From assembly GCF_003351105.1 (NCBI RefSeq), contig NZ_NKRG01000005.1:62001-126000 (forward strand): DNA of 64,000 nt, in the 5' to 3' direction. Position 1 is the first letter of the stretch; each line of letters opens with the position of its first letter. Under the pieces are notes generated by a model that saw only the letters and a program-made list of their open reading frames with translations, was not told the origin of the DNA and made no database searches. This stretch comes from Thermosipho africanus Ob7 (lineage in GTDB: Bacteria > Thermotogota > Thermotogae > Thermotogales > Fervidobacteriaceae). Shown here in pieces: positions 3,944 to 41,807 of this stretch. Both the position numbers and the translations under genes were made by a program.

Positions 3944-5602
3944 ATGTTTTGTTTTCAATGTTCTGAAGCATCAAAGGGTATAGGTTGTACAACAATTGGT
4001 GTATGTGGCAAAAAACCAGAAGTCGCTACACTACAAGATATGTTAATTTGGGTTACTAAGGGTCTTTCATATTGGAGCCTTAAAGCAAAAGATTTAGGCA
4101 TAAAAGATGACGAGGCAAATCTATTTGTTGCTGAAGCATTATTTGCAACAATTACTAATGTTAACTTTTCAGCAGAGAGAATTTCAAAATTTATTGACAG
4201 GGCAATTGAGCTTAGAGACAGAGTTAGAGAGAAGTTTTTAAAATCATATGAAGAAAAATATGGAAAGAAGTTTAACGAAGATATTCCAGAGGCTGCTGAT
4301 TGGTTTGAAAATGGTGGAAAAGATGTTTATCTTAAAAAAGGAGAGCAAGTTGGAGTTTTATCAGAAGAAAATGAAGATGTAAGGTCGTTAAAAGAGTTTT
4401 TAATTTATGGATTAAAAGGCATAGCAGCATATGCAGATCATGCATATATATTAAAATACACTAAAGATGAGATTTTGTATTTCATTGAAAAAGGTCTAGT
4501 AGAAACATTAAGAAAGGATATTACTGCTGATGAATTGCAATCGCTTGTTTTGGAAGCTGGAAAATATGCAGTTGAAGTTATGGCATTACTTGATCAAGCA
4601 AATACCTCAACTTTTGGGCATCCTGAAATTACAGAAGTGTATACTGGAACATATAATGCACCTGCAATTTTAGTTAGTGGACATGATTTACTTGACCTTG
4701 AAGAATTACTCAAACAAACTGAAGGAACAGGTATAATGGTTTATACGCATGGAGAAATGCTTCCTGCACATGCATATCCTAAGCTAAAAAAATATAAACA
4801 TCTTGCTGGAAATTTTGGTAGTGCATGGTGGAAACAAACAGAAGAATTTGAAGAATTTGGTGGAGCAATTTTAATGACTACAAATTGCTTGGTACCACCA
4901 AAAGATAGTTATAAAGATAGAGTATTTACAACGGGACTAGTTGGCTTTGATGGAGTATCTCATATTCCAAATAGAGTTGATGGACAACCAAAAGATTTTA
5001 CGCCTGTAATAAAAAAAGCTCTTGAACTAGGACCAATACCAGAGAGAAAAGGGAAGAAAATTATTATAGGTTTTGCAAGAAATCAGGTAGAGAAGGTATT
5101 AGATTCAGTTTTAAAAGCTGTAAACGAAGGAAAAATAAAAAAATTCTTTGTAATGGCAGGTTGTGATGGAAGATTGAGAGCAAGAGAATATTACACAGAA
5201 TTTGCACTAAAATTACCAAAAGATACTGTCATTCTTACAGCAGGATGTGCAAAGTATAGATATAACATGCTTGATTTAGGAGATATTGATGGAATTCCTA
5301 GAGTTTTGGACGCAGGACAATGTAACGATTCATACTCTTTAGCGGTTACTGCATTAAAACTTAAGGAAATATTAAATGTAGATGATATTAACGAACTTCC
5401 AATAGAATATAACATTGCTTGGTATGAGCAAAAAGCTGTAGCAGTTTTACTCGCACTACTTTATCTTGGAGTTAGAAAGATAAAACTTGGACCAGTACTT
5501 CCCGCATTTCTTTCCAAAAATGTTTTGAATGTTGTTGTAGAAAAATTCAATATTTCAACAATTTCAACTGTTGAAGATGATATGAAACAAATGCTTGCAT
5601 AA
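3944..5602 (+). CDS. hcp: hydroxylamine reductase (hybrid cluster protein)
   Basis: Hcp reduces hydroxylamine to ammonia in vitro and is linked to nitric oxide and nitrosative stress defence in the cytoplasm. The N-terminus has Cys3, Cys6, Cys15 and Cys21 (CX2CX8CX5C), the strict-anaerobe cubane pattern. Hybrid-cluster ligands are visible in [18 protein letters not shown] and QCNDSYS. The GGAGGTGA ribosome site at about 3931-3938 selects the ATG at 3944 (MFCFQCSEA), giving 552 residues; an upstream in-frame ATG at 3923 overlaps the ribosome site and is rejected. It is a single-gene unit with its own promoter and terminator. Confidence 0.96.
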
Positions 5603-5622
5603 GAATTTTTTATTCTAAAATT

Positions 5623-5650
5623 GGCGCTCGTTTTCGAGCGCCTTTTATTT
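5623..5650 (+). terminator. rho-independent terminator after hcp
   Basis: A perfect 8-bp stem GGCGCTCG/CGAGCGCC with a TTTT loop is followed by a T-rich tract. It separates hcp from the nad promoter that begins 11 bases further on. Confidence 0.92.
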
Positions 5651-5660
5651 TTTTATTATA

Positions 5661-5689
5661 TTGACAGATGTAATTTACAAGTGTAAAAT
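5661..5689 (+). promoter_or_regulatory. nadX-nadA-nadC promoter with operator palindrome
   Basis: TTGACA (5661-5666) and TAAAAT (5684-5689) are spaced by 17 bases. The inverted repeat TTTACA-AG-TGTAAA (5674-5687) covers the spacer and most of the -10 box, as expected for a repressor site. NAD synthesis genes in this order are known to be under the niacin-sensing repressor NiaR; assignment of this site to NiaR is inference. Confidence 0.7.
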
Positions 5690-5709
5690 TAAAAATGGAG
5701 GTGTTGAGA

Positions 5710-6444
5710 ATGAAGCCATTATTTCTAGGATTTGGAAATGCAGCAAATGTTATTTTAAAAGAGCTGGAAGGTTATATTCAAGATTTTTATTACTTTGATG
5801 AGAAAAATGTCGCAAGTTCTAATGGGAAAAAACTTGAAAAATTTTTAATTCCAAATGATTGTTCATTTGTAGTTGAATGTGCATCTGTTGAGGCGGTAAA
5901 AGAATATTATAGAGACATAATTATTTCAAATAAGGACTTTTACATTTTGAGTACAGGTGCTTTTGCTGATGAAAATTTTAGGAATGAATTTTTTAGATTG
6001 TTAAAAAATTCAACTTCTAAGATTTATATTCCTTCTGGAGCAATAGGTGGAATAGATGTAATTAATGCAATAAAGGAATATATTGAAAAGGTTGTTTTAA
6101 GAACTCGCAAACCTCCTAAAGCTTTTTCAAGGGACGATAAAGAAAAGGTGTTAATTTTTAGTGGAGATAGTATAGAGGCAATTAAGAGATTTCCAAAAAA
6201 TACAAATGTTTCTGTTACCCTTGCCCTTTCTGTGGGAGATTTTAGAAAAGTTCATGTTGAAATTTATTCTGATCCAAAAGTAGAAAAGAATATTCATGAA
6301 GTTGAAGTTGTATCAAGTGTTGGGAATTATAAATTTATTTTTTCAAATAATCCTTCAAATAATCCAAAAACAAGTTTATTAGCTCCATTATCTCTTGCAG
6401 CATTAATAAAGAAAAATTTTGAAAATGTTAAGATAGGAGGATAG
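5710..6444 (+). CDS. nadX: L-aspartate dehydrogenase
   Basis: NadX oxidises L-aspartate to iminoaspartate with NAD(P), the first step of NAD synthesis, and replaces the FAD enzyme NadB in Thermotogales. The N-terminal Rossmann motif FLGFGNAANVI and the conserved PSGAIGGIDVI segment (about residue 112) are visible. GGAGGTG precedes the ATG at 5710, so the 244-residue form is chosen over an upstream in-frame ATG at 5695. The gene is followed after three bases by nadA, which uses its product, so the assignment is supported by both sequence and context. Confidence 0.92.
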   Translation: MKPLFLGFGNAANVILKELEGYIQDFYYFDEKNVASSNGKKLEKFLIPNDCSFVVECASVEAVKEYYRDIIISNKDFYILSTGAFADENFRNEFFRLLKNSTSKIYIPSGAIGGIDVINAIKEYIEKVVLRTRKPPKAFSRDDKEKVLIFSGDSIEAIKRFPKNTNVSVTLALSVGDFRKVHVEIYSDPKVEKNIHEVEVVSSVGNYKFIFSNNPSNNPKTSLLAPLSLAALIKKNFENVKIGG

Positions 6445-6447
6445 AAA

Positions 6448-7359
6448 ATGGAGAAAATACAGGAAAAGATCAGAAAGCTTGCAAAAGAAAAAGGTTATAC
6501 GATTTTGGCACATAACTATCAAATAAAAGAAATACAAGAAATTGCAGATCACTTAGGTGATTCATTGCAGCTTGCAAGACTTGCAACTAAACTTAATGCT
6601 GAAAAAATTTTGTTTTTGGGTGTAGATTTTATGGCAGAAACTATAAAAATGTTAAATCCTGAGAAAAAAGTTATAGTTCCAGTGAAAGCAGCAACTTGTC
6701 CTATGGCAAATTCTTTGGACCCAGAAATGATTATTGAAGCTAAGAAAAAATATAACGCGCCATTTGTTATATATGTAAATAGTACGATGAAATCAAAAAT
6801 GTATGCAGACGTTGCATGTACTTCTGCTAATGCAGTAGAGATAGTTAAAAAATTAAATAGCGATGTAGTTCTTTTTGGACCTGACAAAAATCTTGCAGCA
6901 TATGTAGCCCGAAAAACTGGTAAAAAAGTTATTCCTGTGCCTGGAGAAACTGGCTACTGTTATGTGCATAATTATATAAAGATTGATGATGTTTTAAAAT
7001 TAAAACAGAAGTATCCAGATGCCAAGGTAATTTCACATCCGGAGGTTCCTGAAGAAATTCAAAAAGTATCTGATTATATAGGTAGTACTTCTCAAATGGA
7101 AAAAATTCCTGGAGAAATTGAAGATAAAAAATTCATAATTGTTACAGAAAAAGATATGGTTAATAAATTAAAAAATAAGTATAAAGAAAAAGAATTTATA
7201 CCAGTAGATACAGCTATTTGCAATAACATGAAGAAAAATACACTCAAAAATGTTTTAAAAGCTTTGGAAAATGAGGAGTTTGAAATAGAAATTGATAAAG
7301 AAATTGCAGATAAGGCAGTCTTGCCTATTAAAAAGATGTTTGAGCTAATGGAGGCATAA
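6448..7359 (+). CDS. nadA: quinolinate synthase
   Basis: NadA condenses iminoaspartate with dihydroxyacetone phosphate to quinolinate using an oxygen-sensitive [4Fe-4S] cluster. Characteristic parts are ILAHNYQ near residue 20, the cluster cysteines in AATCPMA, in the ETGYC segment and in TAICNNM, and a conserved HPEVP. The 303-residue length is usual for the thermophile type. It lies between nadX and nadC with three-base gaps, which marks one translationally linked operon. Confidence 0.96.
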
Positions 7360-11940: not shown

Positions 11941-12021
11941 GTAGATATATTTATATGTAAAGTAAATTAATATTACAATTGATGATGTTATATGTGTTTG
12001 TTCAACATTTTTTTATATCAT
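11941..12021. repeat. intergenic repeat, copy A
   Basis: The gap between the GH1 and TSUP genes (11873-12090) holds the GH1 promoter and this segment. It starts with GTAGATATAT and ends with a 25-base box at 11997-12021 that begins TTTGTTCAACATTT. The same start and a 24/25 match to the box recur at 37115-37209. The function is unknown; it is not a palindrome and carries no gene. Confidence 0.5.
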
Positions 12022-31050: not shown

Positions 31051-34000
31051 TTGAAAAAATTTGACTTTGTGATTGAAAACTATTCAAAGCAAAAATTATT
31101 TTCAAGTTTTTTACCAGGAATTGCCGGGAAAAATGGAATACCTTTATGGGTATTCTATGTGAATAGGGGACAGTGTATAGCAAGTTTTGGGATTGAAAAT
31201 AAGGCAAATTCAATTCTCGAATTTAAACCTGCCGGGCAGAGTCATACGGATACTCCGCTCAAAGGATTTAGAACATTCATAAAAGTTGACGGTAGATATT
31301 ATGAACCATTTTCTGAGTTAACTAATTTCAAAAGGGAAATGAGAATTAATAAAAATAGCCTTGAAATTGAGGAAAGAAACAATGAATTGGGTTTGAAGGT
31401 AAAAGTTATTTATTTTGTCCTTCCAAATGAAGATTTTGCAGCTTTAGTAAGAAGAGTAGAAATTGAAAATGAAGATAAATATGAAAAACATATTGAGATT
31501 ATAGATGGTCTCCCCGAGGTTATTCCTTATGGTGTTTCAAATGGTCTTTACAAAGAAATGGGATATACTGCACGTGCATGGATGCATGTATACAATTATG
31601 AAAAAAAGGTACCGTTTTATAGTGTGAGGACAACAATTGGTGATCTTGAAATTGTAGAAGAAATTAATAATGGTTATTTTTATTTTGCATCAAGTGGAGA
31701 TGAGTTACTTGAGGTAATATACGATAAAAATGTCTTATTTGGTAATTCAACATCACTCCAAGTTCCGCTTGTATTTAAAGAATTAGGAATTAAAGAAGTA
31801 CTAAGAAAAGAACAATATGATGAAAATCTTCTCCCAAGTGCTTTTGGAGTTTTTGAGAGAAAACTAAAAGATAAAGTAGTAATTAATAGCATGATAGGTT
31901 TTTCTAAAGAGAAAGGACTGATAAATAATAATATCAATACTCTTAAAAAGGATGAGTATATCATTTCAAAAAAAGAAGAAGCAGACTTAATTGTTGAGGA
32001 ATTGGTTAGTGAAATAAAAACAAAAACCTCCAACAAGTTGTTTGATAAGTATTGTGAGCAGAATTATCTTGATAATGTATTAAGAGGAGGATATCCATTA
32101 GTTTTTGAAAATAAAGATGGTAAGGTAGTTTATCATATATATTCAAGAAAACATGGAGATTTAGAAAGAGATTATAATTTTTTCGTATTAGAGGCAAAAA
32201 AATATTCTCAAGGTAATGGTAATTTCAGAGATGTTGCACAAAACAGAAGGAATGATGTTATCTTTCATCCAGAAATAGAGGATTTTAATTTAAGCATGTT
32301 TGTGAATTTAATACAGGCTGACGGTAACAATCCATTGGTTGTTAAAGGAACAAGATTTAAATTTGAAGGTGACCCCTCGATATTAGATGGTGTGAATGAA
32401 GAATTAAAGGAATTTATTTTAAATAATTATTTTACTCCAGGGGAAATTCTTGAAAAACTTAAGGATAAGAACGTTAATGAGGATGAATTTGTTTCGAAAA
32501 TTTTTTATCATTCTTCTCAGCATGAACAAGCGGAATTTGGGGAAGGTTACTGGATTGATCATTGGACTTATTTAATGGATTTAGTTGATACTTATAAAGA
32601 AATTTATCCAGATAAATTACAGAAAACATTATTCGAGAAGTTTGAATATAAAATATATGACAGTCATGCATATGTCAAACCAAGAAAAGAAAAGTATAAA
32701 TTATATAAAGGAAAGGTAAGGCAAATTGCTGCAGTTGGAGAATCTCATGAAAAATTAAAAATAATTCAAGAAAGAGGTCACAATTATTTGACAGATAGAA
32801 ACGGTAATATTTATAAAACAAATATGTTTGAAAAGCTATTATTACTTGCTGTAAATAAATTTGCGACACTTGATCCTTATGGAATGGGCTTGGAAATGGA
32901 AGCCAACAAACCAGGATGGAATGATGCTTTAAATGGGCTTCCAGCACTCTTTGGTTCTGGAATGAGCGAGACTTTTGAGTTGAAAAGATTAATTAATTTT
33001 ATGTATGAAGAACTAAAAAAATACAATAAAGATATTGAAGTTTTTGAAGAGTTGCAAGAATTCATTCAAAAAATAAAAGTGGAACTTGAAAATTATTTTA
33101 ATGACAATGATCAGTTTATATACTGGGACAATGTTTCAAATGCAAAAGAAGAATATAGAAGTAAGGTATTTTATAGTATAACAGGAAATAAAAAGAAGAT
33201 TTCAAAAGTTGAATTATTAGCAATTTTAAAGAAGATGATAAAAAAGCTTGATGAGGGAATTGAAAGGGCTAAAAATTACGGAAAAGGTATATATCCTACC
33301 TTTTTTACTTATGAGCTTGTCGATTATGAAGTTATAGATGGTGTAATTATACCTAAGAAATTTGAGGTTAATGTTTTACCTTATTTTCTTGAAGGAATTG
33401 TTAGAGCATTTAAGGTTATAGATAAAGACGAGAAGAAAAAATTATATGATTTTGTAAAGAATTCAAATATTTATGATAAAAAACTAAAGATGTACAAAAC
33501 TTCTGAGAGTATTTTAAATCAACCCTATAGTATTGGTAGAATAAGAGCATTTACACCTGGTTGGCTCGAAAATGAATCTGTTTTCATGCATATGGAATTT
33601 AAGTATCTACTTGAATTAATTAAATCGGATATGCTTGAAGAGTTTTATGAAGATATAAAAACAGCACTTCCACCTTACATGGATTATAAGGTGTATGGTA
33701 GAAGTATTTTAGAAAATTCTTCGTTTATAGTGAGTAGTGCAAATTCAAATCCAAATCTTCACGGTCAAGGTTTTTATGCACGCCTTAGTGGTTCAACGGC
33801 AGAATTTTTAAGTATGTGGAAGTACATGTTCATAGGTGATAAATTATTTACACTTGAAAATAATGAACTTACATTTACCTTTGAACCGAAAATAAATAAA
33901 GAATTCTTTGAAAACGGTGTAATTGAATTCAAACTATTTTCAAAGACTAAAGTAAAATATGTTAATCCTCAGTTAAAAGAAAAGATTGGCAGAATTGAAG

Positions 34001-34110
34001 TTTTTGTAGATGGTAAAAAATTTGAGATACATGGGAATAAAATAAAAGGAGAATTGGCTCATAAATTGAGAAATAAAAAAATAGACGAAGTTATATGTTA
34101 TTTTGAATAA
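31051..34110 (+). CDS. large beta-glucan oligosaccharide phosphorylase (GH94/GH149/GH161 group)
   Basis: This cytoplasmic enzyme of about 1019 residues belongs to the inverting phosphorylases that split beta-linked gluco-oligosaccharides with phosphate to give glucose 1-phosphate. PGWNDALNGLPALFGSG holds the expected catalytic Asp; GQGFYARLSGSTAEFLSMW is the C-terminal phosphate-site region; PAGQSHTDTPLKGFRTF lies in the N-terminal beta domain. The length exceeds classical GH94 cellobiose phosphorylases (about 800) and fits the GH149/GH161 beta-1,3-glucan phosphorylases. Context with two laminarinases favours beta-1,3 substrates. AGAGGTG picks the TTG at 31051 over an in-frame GTG at 31042. 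Confidence 0.85.
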   Translation: MKKFDFVIENYSKQKLFSSFLPGIAGKNGIPLWVFYVNRGQCIASFGIENKANSILEFKPAGQSHTDTPLKGFRTFIKVDGRYYEPFSELTNFKREMRINKNSLEIEERNNELGLKVKVIYFVLPNEDFAALVRRVEIENEDKYEKHIEIIDGLPEVIPYGVSNGLYKEMGYTARAWMHVYNYEKKVPFYSVRTTIGDLEIVEEINNGYFYFASSGDELLEVIYDKNVLFGNSTSLQVPLVFKELGIKEVLRKEQYDENLLPSAFGVFERKLKDKVVINSMIGFSKEKGLINNNINTLKKDEYIISKKEEADLIVEELVSEIKTKTSNKLFDKYCEQNYLDNVLRGGYPLVFENKDGKVVYHIYSRKHGDLERDYNFFVLEAKKYSQGNGNFRDVAQNRRNDVIFHPEIEDFNLSMFVNLIQADGNNPLVVKGTRFKFEGDPSILDGVNEELKEFILNNYFTPGEILEKLKDKNVNEDEFVSKIFYHSSQHEQAEFGEGYWIDHWTYLMDLVDTYKEIYPDKLQKTLFEKFEYKIYDSHAYVKPRKEKYKLYKGKVRQIAAVGESHEKLKIIQERGHNYLTDRNGNIYKTNMFEKLLLLAVNKFATLDPYGMGLEMEANKPGWNDALNGLPALFGSGMSETFELKRLINFMYEELKKYNKDIEVFEELQEFIQKIKVELENYFNDNDQFIYWDNVSNAKEEYRSKVFYSITGNKKKISKVELLAILKKMIKKLDEGIERAKNYGKGIYPTFFTYELVDYEVIDGVIIPKKFEVNVLPYFLEGIVRAFKVIDKDEKKKLYDFVKNSNIYDKKLKMYKTSESILNQPYSIGRIRAFTPGWLENESVFMHMEFKYLLELIKSDMLEEFYEDIKTALPPYMDYKVYGRSILENSSFIVSSANSNPNLHGQGFYARLSGSTAEFLSMWKYMFIGDKLFTLENNELTFTFEPKINKEFFENGVIEFKLFSKTKVKYVNPQLKEKIGRIEVFVDGKKFEIHGNKIKGELAHKLRNKKIDEVICYFE

Positions 34111-34127
34111 TTTAAGGGGGCATAATA

Positions 34128-36287
34128 ATGGATATTGAAAAAATAATTTCACAAATGACAGTTGAAGAAAAGTTAAAACTTTTAGTGGGAGTAGGACTCC
34201 CAGGAATGTTTGGAAATAAGTCATCTAGAGTACCAGGTGCAGCGGGTGAAACTCACCAAATAGAAAGGTTAAAAATACCTTCTACTGTTCATGCTGATGG
34301 CCCGGCAGGTTTGAGAATAGATCCTGAAAGAGAAAATGACAGTAATAAATATCATGCAACTGCATTTCCTATTGCTTCGATGCTTGCTTCTACTTGGAAT
34401 AAAGAGATTTTGTTTGAAGTTGGAAAAGCAATGGGGAATGAAGCTAAAGAATATGGAGTTGATTTTTTGCTTGCTCCGGCAATAAATATTCATAGAAATC
34501 CTTTGTGTGGAAGAAACTTTGAGTATTATTCAGAGGATCCCATTTTGACAGGTGAACTTGCATCTGCTTTTGTAGAAGGTGTTCAGTCAGAGGGTATTGG
34601 AACAAGCTTAAAACATTTTGCTGCAAATAATCAAGAAACAAATAGAATGAAGATAGATACTATTGTATCAGAAAGAGCATTAAGAGAAATTTATTTGAAA
34701 GGATTTGAAATTGTAGTGAAAAAAGCAAAGCCATGGACGGTTATGAGTGCTTACAATAAATTAAATGGAAAATATTGCTCTCAAAATAAATGGCTTTTAA
34801 CAAAGGTTTTGAGAGAAGAATGGGGATTTGAGGGTTTTGTAATGAGTGATTGGTTTGCTGGTGATAATCCTGTTGAACAAATAAAAGCAGGTAATGATTT
34901 AATTATGCCTGGCAAAACTTACAATGTTTTTAAAGATAGAAAAGATGAAATTAAAGAGTTGAAACAGGCATATGAAAAGGGTGAAATTACTGATGATATT
35001 ATTAACGAAAGGGTAAGGACAATTTTAAATATTTTGATGAAGACTCCATCATTCAAAGGATATAAATATTCTAATGCTCCAGATTTTGAAAAACATGCTA
35101 GAATTTCTTACAATGCTGCTTCTGAAGGAGTTGTTCTTTTGAAGAATAACGATGTATTACCTTTTAGTGCTGATGCAAAAGTTTCAATTTTTGGAACAGG
35201 TCAGATTGAAACTGTAAAAGGTGGATTTGGTAGTGGAGATACACATCCAAGGTATACTATAAGTATTTTTGAAGGTTTTAAAGAAAAAGGAGTTAAAGTA
35301 GATGAAAAAATTGGAAATTTCTATAAAGAGAAAGTATTTGAACTTAGAAATGGAAATTATAGGCCAAATTATGTCAATGAGTTTAATTTAAAAATTCCTC
35401 CAAAACTACCAGAAGATATTTTGGATGAAAGTATGATTGATGAAGCTTCTGAAACAAATGATTTAGCTATTATTGTAATTAGTAGAATTTCTGGTGAATT
35501 TGTTGATAGAAGGGCTGTAAAAGGAGATTATTATTTAAGTGATGATGAACAAAAGCTTATAGAAAATGTGTCTAAAAAATTTCATAGTAAAGGAAAGAAG
35601 GTTATAGTGTTACTTAATATAGGTGGTCCTATAGAAATTGCAAGCTGGATTGAGTTGGTGGATGGATTACTACTTATCTGGCAGCCGGGGCAAGAAGCTG
35701 GAAGAGTTGTTGCAGATGTTTGTTTGGGGACTGTAAATCCTTCTGGAAAGCTTCCAACAACTTTTCCAAAGGATTATCAGGATATTCCTTCAAAGTCGTT
35801 TCCTGGCAAACCAGTTGAAAATCCATTAGAGGTAGTATATGAGGAAGATATTTACGTTGGTTATAGGTATTATGATACATTCCAAATCGATCCATTATTT
35901 GAGTTTGGATATGGCCTTTCATATACTAAGTTTGATTACAAAAATTTGATTGTGAAGCATGATGATGAAAATATCGAAATTTGTTTTGAAATTGAAAATA
36001 GTGGTAATGTTGAAGGTAAAGAAATTGCTCAGGTTTATGTTAAAGCTCCTAAAGCAAGGTTAGATAAACCGTTCCAGGAATTGAAAGGTTTTTATAAAAC
36101 GAAAATGTTAAAACCAGGCGAAAAAGAAGAAATATCAATAAAGATTGCATTAAGAGATTTAACTAGTTTTTGTAAGGATAAATGGGTACTTGAAGAAGGA
36201 GAATATAGAATAAGAGTCGGAGCTTCATCAAGAGATATAAGGTTAGAAGAAAAAGTATTTTTAAAAGAAAAAGTATTTAATTTATAA
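34128..36287 (+). CDS. GH3 beta-glucosidase
   Basis: This 719-residue GH3 enzyme has the standard order: a barrel with substrate Asp in HADGPAGLRID, the KHFAANNQE motif, and nucleophile Asp241 in GFVMSDWFAGDNP; an alpha/beta sandwich; and a C-terminal fibronectin III-like domain (VEGKEIAQVYVKAP). It has no signal peptide, so it works in the cytoplasm on imported gluco-oligosaccharides. It is the last gene of the glucan operon and is followed by a strong terminator. Confidence 0.94.
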   Translation: MDIEKIISQMTVEEKLKLLVGVGLPGMFGNKSSRVPGAAGETHQIERLKIPSTVHADGPAGLRIDPERENDSNKYHATAFPIASMLASTWNKEILFEVGKAMGNEAKEYGVDFLLAPAINIHRNPLCGRNFEYYSEDPILTGELASAFVEGVQSEGIGTSLKHFAANNQETNRMKIDTIVSERALREIYLKGFEIVVKKAKPWTVMSAYNKLNGKYCSQNKWLLTKVLREEWGFEGFVMSDWFAGDNPVEQIKAGNDLIMPGKTYNVFKDRKDEIKELKQAYEKGEITDDIINERVRTILNILMKTPSFKGYKYSNAPDFEKHARISYNAASEGVVLLKNNDVLPFSADAKVSIFGTGQIETVKGGFGSGDTHPRYTISIFEGFKEKGVKVDEKIGNFYKEKVFELRNGNYRPNYVNEFNLKIPPKLPEDILDESMIDEASETNDLAIIVISRISGEFVDRRAVKGDYYLSDDEQKLIENVSKKFHSKGKKVIVLLNIGGPIEIASWIELVDGLLLIWQPGQEAGRVVADVCLGTVNPSGKLPTTFPKDYQDIPSKSFPGKPVENPLEVVYEEDIYVGYRYYDTFQIDPLFEFGYGLSYTKFDYKNLIVKHDDENIEICFEIENSGNVEGKEIAQVYVKAPKARLDKPFQELKGFYKTKMLKPGEKEEISIKIALRDLTSFCKDKWVLEEGEYRIRVGASSRDIRLEEKVFLKEKVFNL

Positions 36288-36307
36288 AAACTTGAATGAA
36301 AAAATGT

Positions 36308-36350
36308 AAATCCCCATCTCTCATTATGAAAGATGGGGATTTTTGTTTTT
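36308..36350 (+). terminator. terminator of the glucan operon
   Basis: AAATCCCCATCT (36308-36319) pairs with AGATGGGGATTT (36331-36342), followed by TTGTTTTT. It closes the transcription unit that begins near 15197 and also faces the convergent DUF2202 gene. Confidence 0.92.
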
Positions 36351-36370
36351 AAAGTCTTAATAATTTTTAT

Positions 36371-36982
36371 TCAAAATTTTAAAATTTCTCTAAATCTTTC
36401 CAATGATATAAATTGTGGAGTATAAGTTTTGCCGAGTTTATCAAGGTTTTTTATGAACGATCTCATATGATTTTCTGATCCTTTCATTAGATTGTTGTAA
36501 ATAAATTTGATATCTTCATTATCAGTACTTTTTAATAATTCTTCTAAATCAAAAATATCTAGATCTTCAATTGTTGCTCCTACTTTTAAAGCATCGCTTA
36601 ATGATTTTTCTCCAAGTGATAAAAGTTCATTAAATAAATTTTGCAGTTCTTCATTTTTAAATACTCCAATATTTTCAAAATCTTCATCAGTTATTGGATC
36701 TTTAAGATTATACTTTTCAATTAAAGTTTTTACTGCATCCATATGAGTTTGCTCAGATTGCGCAATGTTATAAAACACTGGTAAGTCCCATGTTTTATAT
36801 AATTCCAAATAAACATCTCTTGCTAATTTTTCTTCTTCCCTCATCTGCATTATACCCTCTACTTCACTTGCAGAAAGTGTTTCATATGGTAAAGAATTTA
36901 CCTGTTTATCCACAGTTAAATTTCCAGCAAATAAAACAATTGATAAAAAATTTAAAACTGCAAAAGCTATTACTTTTTTCAT
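36371..36982 (-). CDS. exported DUF2202 ferritin-like protein
   Basis: The protein has a signal peptide (MKKVIAFAVLNFLSIVLFAG) and a four-helix DUF2202 domain. Likely di-metal residues lie in MREEEKLARDVYLELY, IAQSEQTHMDAV, and GSENHMRSFI. Such domains are ferritin-like; metal binding outside the membrane is inference. AAAGGAG selects the ATG at 36982 (203 residues) over an in-frame start 13 codons upstream. The promoter carries four 11-bp-phased repeats (37041-37084), which suggests control by a PhoB/OmpR-type response regulator, perhaps in envelope or metal stress. Confidence 0.82.
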   Translation of the reverse strand: MKKVIAFAVLNFLSIVLFAGNLTVDKQVNSLPYETLSASEVEGIMQMREEEKLARDVYLELYKTWDLPVFYNIAQSEQTHMDAVKTLIEKYNLKDPITDEDFENIGVFKNEELQNLFNELLSLGEKSLSDALKVGATIEDLDIFDLEELLKSTDNEDIKFIYNNLMKGSENHMRSFIKNLDKLGKTYTPQFISLERFREILKF

Positions 36983-37026
36983 GTTAATCACTTCTCCTTT
37001 TATGATATTTTTCGTTGACAATTTTA

Positions 37027-37084
37027 ATCTTACACTAAAAAGCTTAATGAATACTTAAAAATTACTTAGGATTTACTTAGAAAT
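37027..37084 (-). promoter_or_regulatory. promoter with four direct repeats at 11-bp spacing
   Basis: CTTA on the plus strand (TAAG on the transcribed strand) begins at 37043, 37054, 37065 and 37076, exactly one per 11 bases. On the minus strand the last repeat ends about 10 bases before a TAAGAT -10 box (37032-37027), and no -35 box is seen. This is the layout of PhoB/OmpR-family activated promoters. The regulator is not in the window. Confidence 0.6.
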
Positions 37085-37114
37085 GGATTAAAAAAATAAA
37101 AAATATCAAAAAAC

Positions 37115-37209
37115 GTAGATATATATTATATGAGTAGGATAAAATTAAGAGAAAACAGAAAATTCAAGTAATATACCATATATATTTGTTCAACATTTGT
37201 TTATATCAT
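37115..37209. repeat. intergenic repeat, copy B
   Basis: This second copy of the segment at 11941-12021 starts GTAGATATAT, with variable middle sequence, and ends in the box at 37185-37209, which matches copy A in 24 of 25 bases. It lies between the DUF2202 promoter and the LacI remnant. No gene or palindrome is seen in it. Confidence 0.5.
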
Positions 37210-37228
37210 TCAAAAAATGAAAAACTAA

Positions 37229-37256
37229 AAAAGTTGGCTAAAACTAGCCAACTTTT
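37229..37256 (+). terminator. 12-bp perfect stem-loop before the LacI remnant
   Basis: AAAAGTTGGCTA-AAAC-TAGCCAACTTTT is a perfect inverted repeat with a T4 end. No gene reads into it from the left on the plus strand, so it may terminate a small transcript or a gene removed by the deletion that truncated the next reading frame. Confidence 0.6.
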
Positions 37257-37313
37257 CCATAAAAATTATATTTTTCAACTATAAAGTTCTTTTACAAACA
37301 GTTATATTGCTAT

Positions 37314-37754
37314 GTGAATGGACCTTTAAATTCATATGGATTTAAAGGAAGATTTGATGGGTACACAAGTGCAATGGAAGAAGCTGGACTTCTTCCAAAA
37401 TATTATGAATATGACGACATTAAAGATAACATGTCTGATGTAATAGATTTTATGCTTAGAAAGAACGAAAAACCCGAAGCGATCTTTGCGTCAAATGATA
37501 TAACTGCAATGAGGGTGATAAGGGAACTGAAAAAGAGAAATTTCAAAGTTCCAAAAGATGTTTCAGTTATAGGATTTGATGACATTATAAGTGCAGAGAG
37601 TTTTGATCCACCTTTGACTACTTTAAAAGTTTTTAAAGATGAAATGGGCTCACTAGCTGCTAAGAGAATATATGAACTTTTGGTGGGACATGACATACAT
37701 CCAATAATGATGTCTCTATTCACAAAATTTATTAAAAGAAAGAGTTCTATTTAG
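37314..37754 (+). pseudogene. LacI family regulator, 5'-truncated remnant
   Basis: Only the C-terminal half of a LacI-type effector domain remains: YVNGPLNSYGFKGRFDGY, EAIFASNDITAMRVI and VSVIGFDDIISAESFDPPLTT. The DNA-binding domain and the first half of the effector domain are missing; family similarity starts near 37302 and the sequence before it is AT-rich with no coding look. A GTG at 37314 could start translation, but the product could not bind DNA. It must once have regulated the permease and glycosidase genes that follow 11 bases later. Confidence 0.85.
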
Positions 37755-37765
37755 GAGGGATTTAT

Positions 37766-38644
37766 TTGGTTTCTAAATTAAGAAAAAGAGAAAATTATCT
37801 TGGGTGGGGATTTTCTTCCATCTACTTAATATACACAGCAATTTTTTGGGGTTATCCCTTTGTCTGGTTAGTAATTCTTTCATTTTCTAAATGGAATTTT
37901 TTTGGTTCACCGCGACCGGTGGGATTTAGAAATTTTATAAGGCTTTTCAGTGATCCAATTTTTTGGAGAATTTTTTTAAATACAGTTAATTTTATGGTTT
38001 ATTTCATTCCGATGGTACTTGGTTTGTCATTACTTTTTGCGCTTGCATTATACAGAGTAAATATATTTAGAACTTTTTTTGCTTTAAGCTTTTTGATAGC
38101 AAATGTCTCATCTGGTGTTGCATATTCGATTCTTTTTTCTAATCTTTTTTCAGAGAGTGGTCCAATAAATAGTTTTTTATATAAAAATTTTGGTATTACT
38201 GTTCCTTGGTTTAGTGATCCGCAACTTGCTCTTCTTTCAATTGCAATAATGGTAACATGGAAGTTTGTTGGTTATTATGGATTGATTTTATTTGCAGGTT
38301 TAAATGCTATTCCAAAATCTTTATACGAGGCAGCCGAACTTGACGGAGCTACTAACTGGCAAAAGTTTTGGAAAATAACATTTCCATTAATTAATCCTGC
38401 ATTAACTACAGTTCTTGTTTTTGCTGTTAATTTAACATTTGGAATATTTACAGAACCTTATATGATAACAGGTGGAGGCCCTATGAGAAGGACTCTTACG
38501 TTTATGATGCATATTTATACAACGGCTTTTCAGAGAATGGATCCTTCATATGCGGCAAGTTTGGCTGTAGTCACAGGGCTTCTAAGTTATGGTTGTGTTT
38601 TGCTTGTTCGTTTTTTAGTTGAAAGAGAGGTGTCTCTTGTATGA
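37766..38644 (+). CDS. ABC sugar permease, MalF type
   Basis: This 292-residue six-helix permease has the EAA loop YEAAELDGATNWQKFWKITF and a typical MalF entry (FSKWNFFGSPRPVGFRNF). It starts at a TTG with AGGAGGG before it. Its gene overlaps the MalG partner by four bases (ATGA). No substrate-binding protein gene lies upstream, where one is normally found; it was probably lost together with the front of the LacI gene. Confidence 0.9.
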   Translation: MVSKLRKRENYLGWGFSSIYLIYTAIFWGYPFVWLVILSFSKWNFFGSPRPVGFRNFIRLFSDPIFWRIFLNTVNFMVYFIPMVLGLSLLFALALYRVNIFRTFFALSFLIANVSSGVAYSILFSNLFSESGPINSFLYKNFGITVPWFSDPQLALLSIAIMVTWKFVGYYGLILFAGLNAIPKSLYEAAELDGATNWQKFWKITFPLINPALTTVLVFAVNLTFGIFTEPYMITGGGPMRRTLTFMMHIYTTAFQRMDPSYAASLAVVTGLLSYGCVLLVRFLVEREVSLV

Positions 38645-39471
38645 AAAAAACTAAGAAAAAGAAATTTCCGTACATTACTTTCACATTATTATTTTTAGGT
38701 TCTATAATATGGATTTACCCATATTTCTGGCTTCTTTTTTCATCTTTTAAGCCAACAAGTGAAATTTATACACGCTTTTGGCCTACAAAATTTACATTAG
38801 AGCATTATAAATTTATATTTTTGATGTCAGATAAACTTCAAAGACCTTTCTTTAGAGCACTCTTAAATAGTATATTCATCTCAGTTACTATTACCTTTTC
38901 TGTAATTGTTTCCTCGGCATTTTTTGGATATATTTTATCTAAAATTCGATTTAAGGGTAGAAAAGGTGTTTTTAATTTTATTCTTTTTCAAATGCTTTTT
39001 CCTGGATTTATGTTTATAGTTCCGTTATTTGTTTTAATAAAAACTCTTGGATTGTTAAACACATATTCAGCAATAATTTTACCTTCTATAATAAGTGCTT
39101 GGGGAAGCTTTATGTTTGCCCAAACATTTAAATCAATTCCAAATGATTATATTGAAGCAGCTAAGATAGACGGAGCAAATACTTTTTGGATTGTAACAAG
39201 AGTCATGTTTCCACTAGCACGTTCCACAGCATCTATTGTTGGCTTATTTACATTTATAGGTGCATGGGATAACTTCATGTGGCCTTTAATTGTTATGAAA
39301 GATTACAATAAAATGCCGTTATCGGTTTTGCTTGCAAGTTTCAACCATGAATATAGTAGTTATGTTGGACCAATACTTGCTGGTTCAGTAATTCAAACAA
39401 TACCTATGGTTTTAATTTTCTTAATTTTTAGAAAATATTTCTTGCAGGGAATTTCAGTATCTTTAAAATAA
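38641..39471 (+). CDS. ABC sugar permease, MalG type
   Basis: This MalG-class permease of 276 residues has the EAA loop IEAAKIDGANTFWIVTRVMF and the loop SSFKPTSEIYTRFWPTKF. Its start overlaps the stop of the MalF partner. Together with the GH130 and GH4 genes downstream it forms a glycan uptake and breakdown locus without its own ATPase or binding protein. Confidence 0.9.
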   Translation: MKKTKKKKFPYITFTLLFLGSIIWIYPYFWLLFSSFKPTSEIYTRFWPTKFTLEHYKFIFLMSDKLQRPFFRALLNSIFISVTITFSVIVSSAFFGYILSKIRFKGRKGVFNFILFQMLFPGFMFIVPLFVLIKTLGLLNTYSAIILPSIISAWGSFMFAQTFKSIPNDYIEAAKIDGANTFWIVTRVMFPLARSTASIVGLFTFIGAWDNFMWPLIVMKDYNKMPLSVLLASFNHEYSSYVGPILAGSVIQTIPMVLIFLIFRKYFLQGISVSLK

Positions 39472-39493
39472 GTTGATGAGAGGAGGAATTTAT

Positions 39494-41807
<2,314 letters not shown>

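Follow-up and report, generated by a model that had tools for sequence, protein, structure and literature searches.

The DUF2202 gene of Thermosipho africanus Ob7 is preceded by four copies of a short word spaced exactly 11 bp apart, which raises the questions of what reads this array and what the reader says about the gene behind it. DUF2202 is, to our knowledge, a widespread family of unknown function. We analyzed the locus in a 64,000-nt window (the whole stretch of DNA under study, to which all unprefixed coordinates refer), in the host genome, and across the class. The product of the gene matched Pfam PF09968 with an E value of 7e-61 and 205 bits against a curated cutoff of 22, which makes it a member of the family. 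A DUF2202 relative of solved structure, MJ0754 of Methanocaldococcus jannaschii (PDB 3q4n/3q4o; E value of 1e-63 for 3q4n), shares this protein family with the target gene but is archaeal. A literature search for “DUF2202” found no paper, and a search covering MJ0754, DUF2202, and two-component regulons of Thermotogales or Thermosipho returned nothing on the regulon described here. The features of the locus are as follows.

36374..36982, minus strand: DUF2202 gene, 203 aa, with a signal-like N-terminal segment, of a ferritin-like family; the target gene (profile match)
36987..37000, minus strand: ribosome-binding region AAAGGAGAAGTG of the DUF2202 gene (sequence)
37027..37032, minus strand: -10 hexamer TAAGAT, exactly 10 nt past the last TAAG (sequence and alignment of 40 arrays)
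37043..37049, minus strand: half-site 4 (promoter proximal), CATTAAG, in place of a -35 element (sequence and alignment of 40 arrays)
37054..37060, minus strand: half-site 3, TTTTAAG, 11 bp from half-site 2 (sequence)
37065..37071, minus strand: half-site 2, TCCTAAG, 11 bp from half-site 1 (sequence)
37076..37082, minus strand: half-site 1 (distal), TTCTAAG (sequence)
37114..37207, minus strand: AT-rich element, GATATnAAAnAnnGTTGAACAAATATAT ... ATATATCTAC, at about 110 bp from the array on its upstream side (sequence comparison)
37229..37256, no strand assigned: terminator-like perfect inverted repeat (12 bp, 4-nt loop) at the edge of the intergenic region (sequence)

Translation of the DUF2202 gene starts at an ATG at 36982 (minus strand) after a short leader. 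An Rfam search of positions 34000 to 40500 matched no RNA family. On the other side of the intergenic region, a gene at 37314 to 37754 (plus strand) encodes a LacI-type sugar regulator without a DNA-binding N terminus (its Peripla_BP_3 match starts at profile position 27); it lies just upstream of an ABC sugar-transport operon and looks truncated.

The preliminary description of this DNA had placed CTTA words on the plus strand at 37043, 37054, 37065, and 37076 and the -10 box about 10 bases away. All four positions are present in the sequence, and the gap, read on the minus strand, is exactly 10 nt after the last TAAG. Since DUF2202 is encoded on the minus strand, the biologically relevant reading of the array is as TAAG half-sites and not as CTTA: from 37082 to 37043 it reads TTCTAAG TAAA TCCTAAG TAAT TTTTAAG TATT CATTAAG, followed by 10 nt and then TAAGAT. 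The consensus half-site is TTCTAAG-N4, a 7-bp motif and a 4-bp spacer that together give the 11-bp period. An 11-bp period and a head-to-tail sense are traits of OmpR/PhoB-family boxes, and the array has both, being made of direct head-to-tail repeats of about 6 to 7 bp. It also occupies the -35 position at a fixed helical distance from the -10 hexamer, the arrangement of an activator-type box.

Within the window alone, the regularity of the array is only mildly improbable. Counting any nonhomopolymer 4-mer, we found one case of four copies at a spacing of 11 (0.06 expected) and two at spacings of 9 to 13 (0.33 expected). The case therefore rests on the whole genome and on its relatives. A search of the 1.93-Mb genome for the same array, as the preliminary description had proposed, found only two loci with at least three in-phase TAAG words, and each has four (0.0007 places with four copies expected): the DUF2202 promoter and one further locus, which precedes a gene for a 184-aa exported protein whose sequence shows an OB-like pattern. 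Both arrays thus have an exported-protein gene downstream, and both have the -10 element 10 nt on.

The two loci also share sequence farther upstream. Both four-copy arrays of the genome have, about 110 bp farther upstream, an AT-rich dispersed element made up of GATATnAAAnAnnGTTGAACAAATATAT and then ATATATCTAC; the two promoters may thus be duplicates of one another and not fully independent. This element occurs additionally at a third site without an array; the coordinates recorded for the element are 37114 to 37207 (minus strand), L005:9031-9110, L003:1381-1470, and about 11990 to 12020 of the window (minus strand). It is present in G001 too, even beside a decayed DUF2202 gene.

We then surveyed 103 genomes of the class with a three-copy TAAG pattern, using the reversed pattern as a control. 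The pattern gave about 60 matches, compared with about 12 for the reversed control, and 35 of the 103 genomes carried it. The preliminary description had made its reading hinge on conservation in orthologous promoters, and this held: orthologous DUF2202 promoters across the class keep the array or remnants of it, those of other genera having between two and four copies of the consensus TTCTAAG-N4. Upstream of 79 DUF2202 homologues from other phyla, we found none with two in-phase TAAG copies. When 40 nonredundant arrays were aligned on the last TAAG, 34 had four copies; the G of the half-site was invariant in the three proximal copies, the 4-bp spacers varied freely, and TTCTAAG was preferred in the distal copies. 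Nearly all had TAnnAT exactly 10 nt downstream (T, 93%; A, 95%; A, 95%; T, 100%). Four copies, free spacers, and a fixed TAnnAT are together the layout of an activator box that stands in for the -35 element.

Phased A/T-rich DNA that strengthens the promoter as an intrinsic bend or UP-like element, without being a protein site, could also give an array of this kind, since the region around it is A+T rich and an 11-bp phase could sum small bends. However, an invariant G in the three proximal copies next to freely varying spacers is not what bending would maintain, nor would bending be confined to a few genes or account for the boxes at a regulator operon described below. We regard this explanation as extremely improbable.

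The genes that recur behind class arrays encode DUF2202 and DUF2202-like proteins and the exported OB-like protein; further ones encode small SHOCT membrane proteins (PF09851), polyferredoxin, Fe-S proteins, and small cytoplasmic OB-like proteins. In one genome (L143 in G007, positions 4003 to 6580), the genes immediately before an array-bearing SHOCT gene encode a metal-transporting P-type ATPase and an ArsR-like regulator. Two near-identical four-copy arrays lie about 1.1 kb apart on G018:C122 (L307/L327); for these and for L153 (G009) there is no obvious start codon immediately downstream, and they perhaps serve small-RNA genes, as in the CiaR regulon. In close relatives, DUF2202 relatives at L052 (G001), L048 (G011), and L053 (G004) have in-frame stops or give short matches only, and in G001 the array upstream of the decayed gene is gone too, as if box and gene had decayed together. 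A three-copy match in G061 is probably due to chance; its TAAG words have other flanking bases, no recognizable target lies there, and G061 has no RR-B ortholog (see below) at the search threshold.

The preliminary description had proposed an OmpR/PhoB-type regulator bound as tandem dimers. The 11-bp period, the fixed -10 spacing, and the class-wide conservation of the array support such a reader, and three proteins encoded in the genome exceed the Pfam cutoff for the OmpR-family DNA-binding domain: RR-A, RR-B, and RR-C. The candidate that best fits the distribution of the box is the following.

G000:C2:88466-89116, minus strand: RR-B, an OmpR/PhoB-family response regulator

RR-B was found in 33 of the 35 array-bearing genomes, compared with 40 of the 68 others (Fisher test, 8e-5 by genome and 0.03 by genus; for RR-C, 0.31 and 0.49). 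Since the genomes are related, the by-genus values (0.03 for RR-B versus 0.49 for RR-C) are the fairer figures. At the search threshold, RR-B was not found in genera g7, g9, and g14. The array could instead be the Pho box of RR-C, a PhoB-like regulator whose gene sits inside the Pst operon and is accompanied by a kinase gene; DUF2202 would then belong to a phosphate starvation regulon. In favor of this, RR-C belongs to the right DNA-binding family, and Pho boxes likewise have an 11-bp period. The distribution of RR-C does not match that of the arrays, however: it was not found in array-bearing G014, G023, G052, G056, G064, and G070, and all seven genomes of genus g7, which lack arrays, have it. 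Moreover, the Pst operon of the host genome carries no array, although a Pho regulon would have its box at phosphate genes. We therefore rejected RR-C as the reader on its distribution, and a phosphate starvation box appears very unlikely. RR-A was rejected on the same ground: with its own kinase, it occurs in 103 of 103 genomes, with arrays or without, the array-less seven-genome genus g7 included.

Direct genomic links make a stronger argument for RR-B than the co-occurrence statistics do. A box with a correctly spaced -10 element lies directly upstream of the RR-B operon in five genomes of two families (G009, G018, and G019 in f1; G049 and G059 in f8), an autoregulatory arrangement that was found for RR-B. 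The array of G052 and of G064 separates an RR-B/kinase operon from a divergent DUF2202-like gene, and phylogeny places the regulator of these genomes inside the RR-B clade (support of 98/97). The recognition helix core VEVYxNY[LI]R[KR]K was present in 30 of the 30 RR-B orthologues examined. Several observations run against RR-B as the only reader. RR-B also occurs in genomes without three-copy arrays; G089 (a genome 87% complete) has several arrays and RR-B only as a stop-riddled fragment; and some arrays of genus g20 have another response regulator/kinase pair divergent from them. The broken RR-B of G089 and the second two-component system of g20 make an exchange of readers possible in that lineage. 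More broadly, the box might be read by the universal RR-A or, in some lineages, by another pair such as that of g20, so that readers differ by lineage; the operon directly divergent from an array-bearing gene in G050 and G089 encodes a response regulator and kinase, and this regulator falls outside the RR-B clade. Yet the recognition helix of the g20 regulator is a different one (DTRAVDMAIQRLRKK), and the regulator is absent from the host genome; on these grounds, together with its place outside the RR-B clade, it was rejected as a general reader. Own-operon boxes were found for RR-B, in five genomes of two families. We consider reading by RR-A or by such lineage-specific pairs unlikely. The evidence supports narrowing the earlier proposal from an OmpR-type regulator to RR-B as the candidate reader, and from sequence and conservation, the array is very probably a four-half-site activator box for this one OmpR/PhoB-family regulator, which is encoded in the genome and co-occurs with the box.

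Comparison with known systems is consistent with this assignment. CiaR, the regulator of the CiaRH system of Streptococcus, binds NTTAAG-N5-TTTAAG with the -10 element 10 nt from the last half-site and has the recognition helix VVEVYVSKVRKKL (PMC3091779). It resembles the system described here in being an OmpR-family regulator with a half-site ending in TAAG, an 11-bp period, and the same -10 distance. Judged on the recognition helix printed in PMC3091779 alone, RR-B (TVEVYINYLRKKL) is identical to CiaR at 8 of 13 positions in the host and at 10 of 13 in the G049 orthologue. The host half-sites TTTAAG and ATTAAG match NTTAAG, and the distal two have C at position 2 of the hexamer. The systems differ in that CiaR uses two half-sites and four are the rule here, in the distal TTCTAAG of the class arrays, and in targets and lineage. 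PhoP of Mycobacterium tuberculosis, one of the nearest structurally solved regulators, occupies 7-bp repeats separated by 4-bp spacers; it does so as a tandem dimer, and it binds three to four motifs more tightly than two (PMC4832192). It has the same 7-plus-4-bp geometry, and its higher affinity for three to four motifs offers a physical model for four half-sites; its motif (TCACAGC, versus TTCTAAG) and its targets are different. A similar helix with another motif means that helix likeness does not guarantee the same box. For BAS0540-BAS0541, a CiaRH-like system of Bacillus anthracis, predicted TTTAAG-N5-TTTAAG sites supported by electrophoretic mobility shift assay (EMSA) include its own promoter and that of an efflux protein gene (PMC4938410). 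These parallel the RR-B autoregulatory sites and the exporter sites described below, although that system has two half-sites and other targets. Overall, the RR-B system appears to work like CiaR and PhoP, which is not to say that it is CiaR.

We found no kinase gene beside RR-B in the host genome. A candidate partner is encoded elsewhere.

G000:C1:22772-23965: histidine kinase HK-B, downstream of an Hsp33-like gene (named from its sequence by eye) in the same apparent operon

HK-B scored about 130 to 300 bits against the kinases that adjoin RR-B in other lineages, whereas other kinases scored about 90 or fewer, and the box also precedes the corresponding Hsp33/HK-B operon in G014. A spacing-aware pattern (two TAAG words and a -10 element) matched four promoters in the host genome. 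Two have four copies and precede the genes for DUF2202 and the 184-aa exported OB-like protein. The other two have two copies: one precedes a SHOCT membrane protein gene and, after it, a second OB-like gene; the other precedes a five-gene operon for two outer membrane-type proteins, a MacA-like protein, and two MacB-like proteins (MacAB-TolC-like). In controls, single two-copy matches were near chance level, and it is thus the conserved ones that carry weight: the SHOCT/OB pair and its box are conserved in G001, G003, G012, and G014, and the MacAB-TolC-like operon and its box are conserved in G010. Profile searches against Pfam and PDB gave weak OB-fold matches for the exported OB-like protein (best E value, 0.0012; a minority of members), so the OB fold is a reading of the sequence pattern and not a firm assignment.

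We propose that HK-B, on sensing its signal, would phosphorylate RR-B, a pairing suggested by the kinase scores. Two tandem dimers of phosphorylated RR-B would then line up head to tail along a single helical face, covering the four TTCTAAG half-sites. In this arrangement, the final RR-B subunit would occupy the -35 place, 10 nt from the -10 element, and recruit RNA polymerase (class II activation), so that the array would serve activation rather than repression. If RR-B activates the array promoters, DUF2202 is one output of a small regulon.

The preliminary description had also suggested a stress context for DUF2202. The encoded functions of the other targets support this indirectly; phosphate, one of the signals it had put forward, is disfavored by the distribution of RR-C. 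A better fit than phosphate is envelope or redox stress, given that the targets encode exported OB-fold-like proteins, SHOCT membrane proteins, and an exporter of the MacAB-TolC-like type. The exported proteins, the exporter, the ferritin-like family, the Hsp33 link, and parallels in other bacteria all point to an envelope or redox stress signal. One such parallel is the VC1639 system of Vibrio cholerae, which activates VCA0732, an exported OB-fold protein of the YgiW/VisP type, on exposure to polymyxin (PMC5636140). The system described here would likewise have a response regulator activate an exported OB-fold-like protein in an envelope stress setting, but no Pfam membership in the VCA0732 family was detected for the OB-like proteins here. 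We give even weight for and against the fuller reading, in which a previously undescribed class-wide envelope/redox stress response uses a CiaR-like regulator, four-half-site promoters, and a kinase coupled to Hsp33, its core outputs being exported DUF2202, the exported OB-fold protein, SHOCT membrane proteins, and the MacAB-TolC-like exporter.

The candidate regulator, the box, and the putatively coregulated genes place an exported ferritin-like DUF2202 protein in a defined, envelope-directed regulon, in which its role is directly testable. For a thermophile lineage that branches deeply, the regulon is an apparent stress response, and its promoters with two or four half-sites provide a natural set for asking how tandem response regulator dimers set promoter strength.
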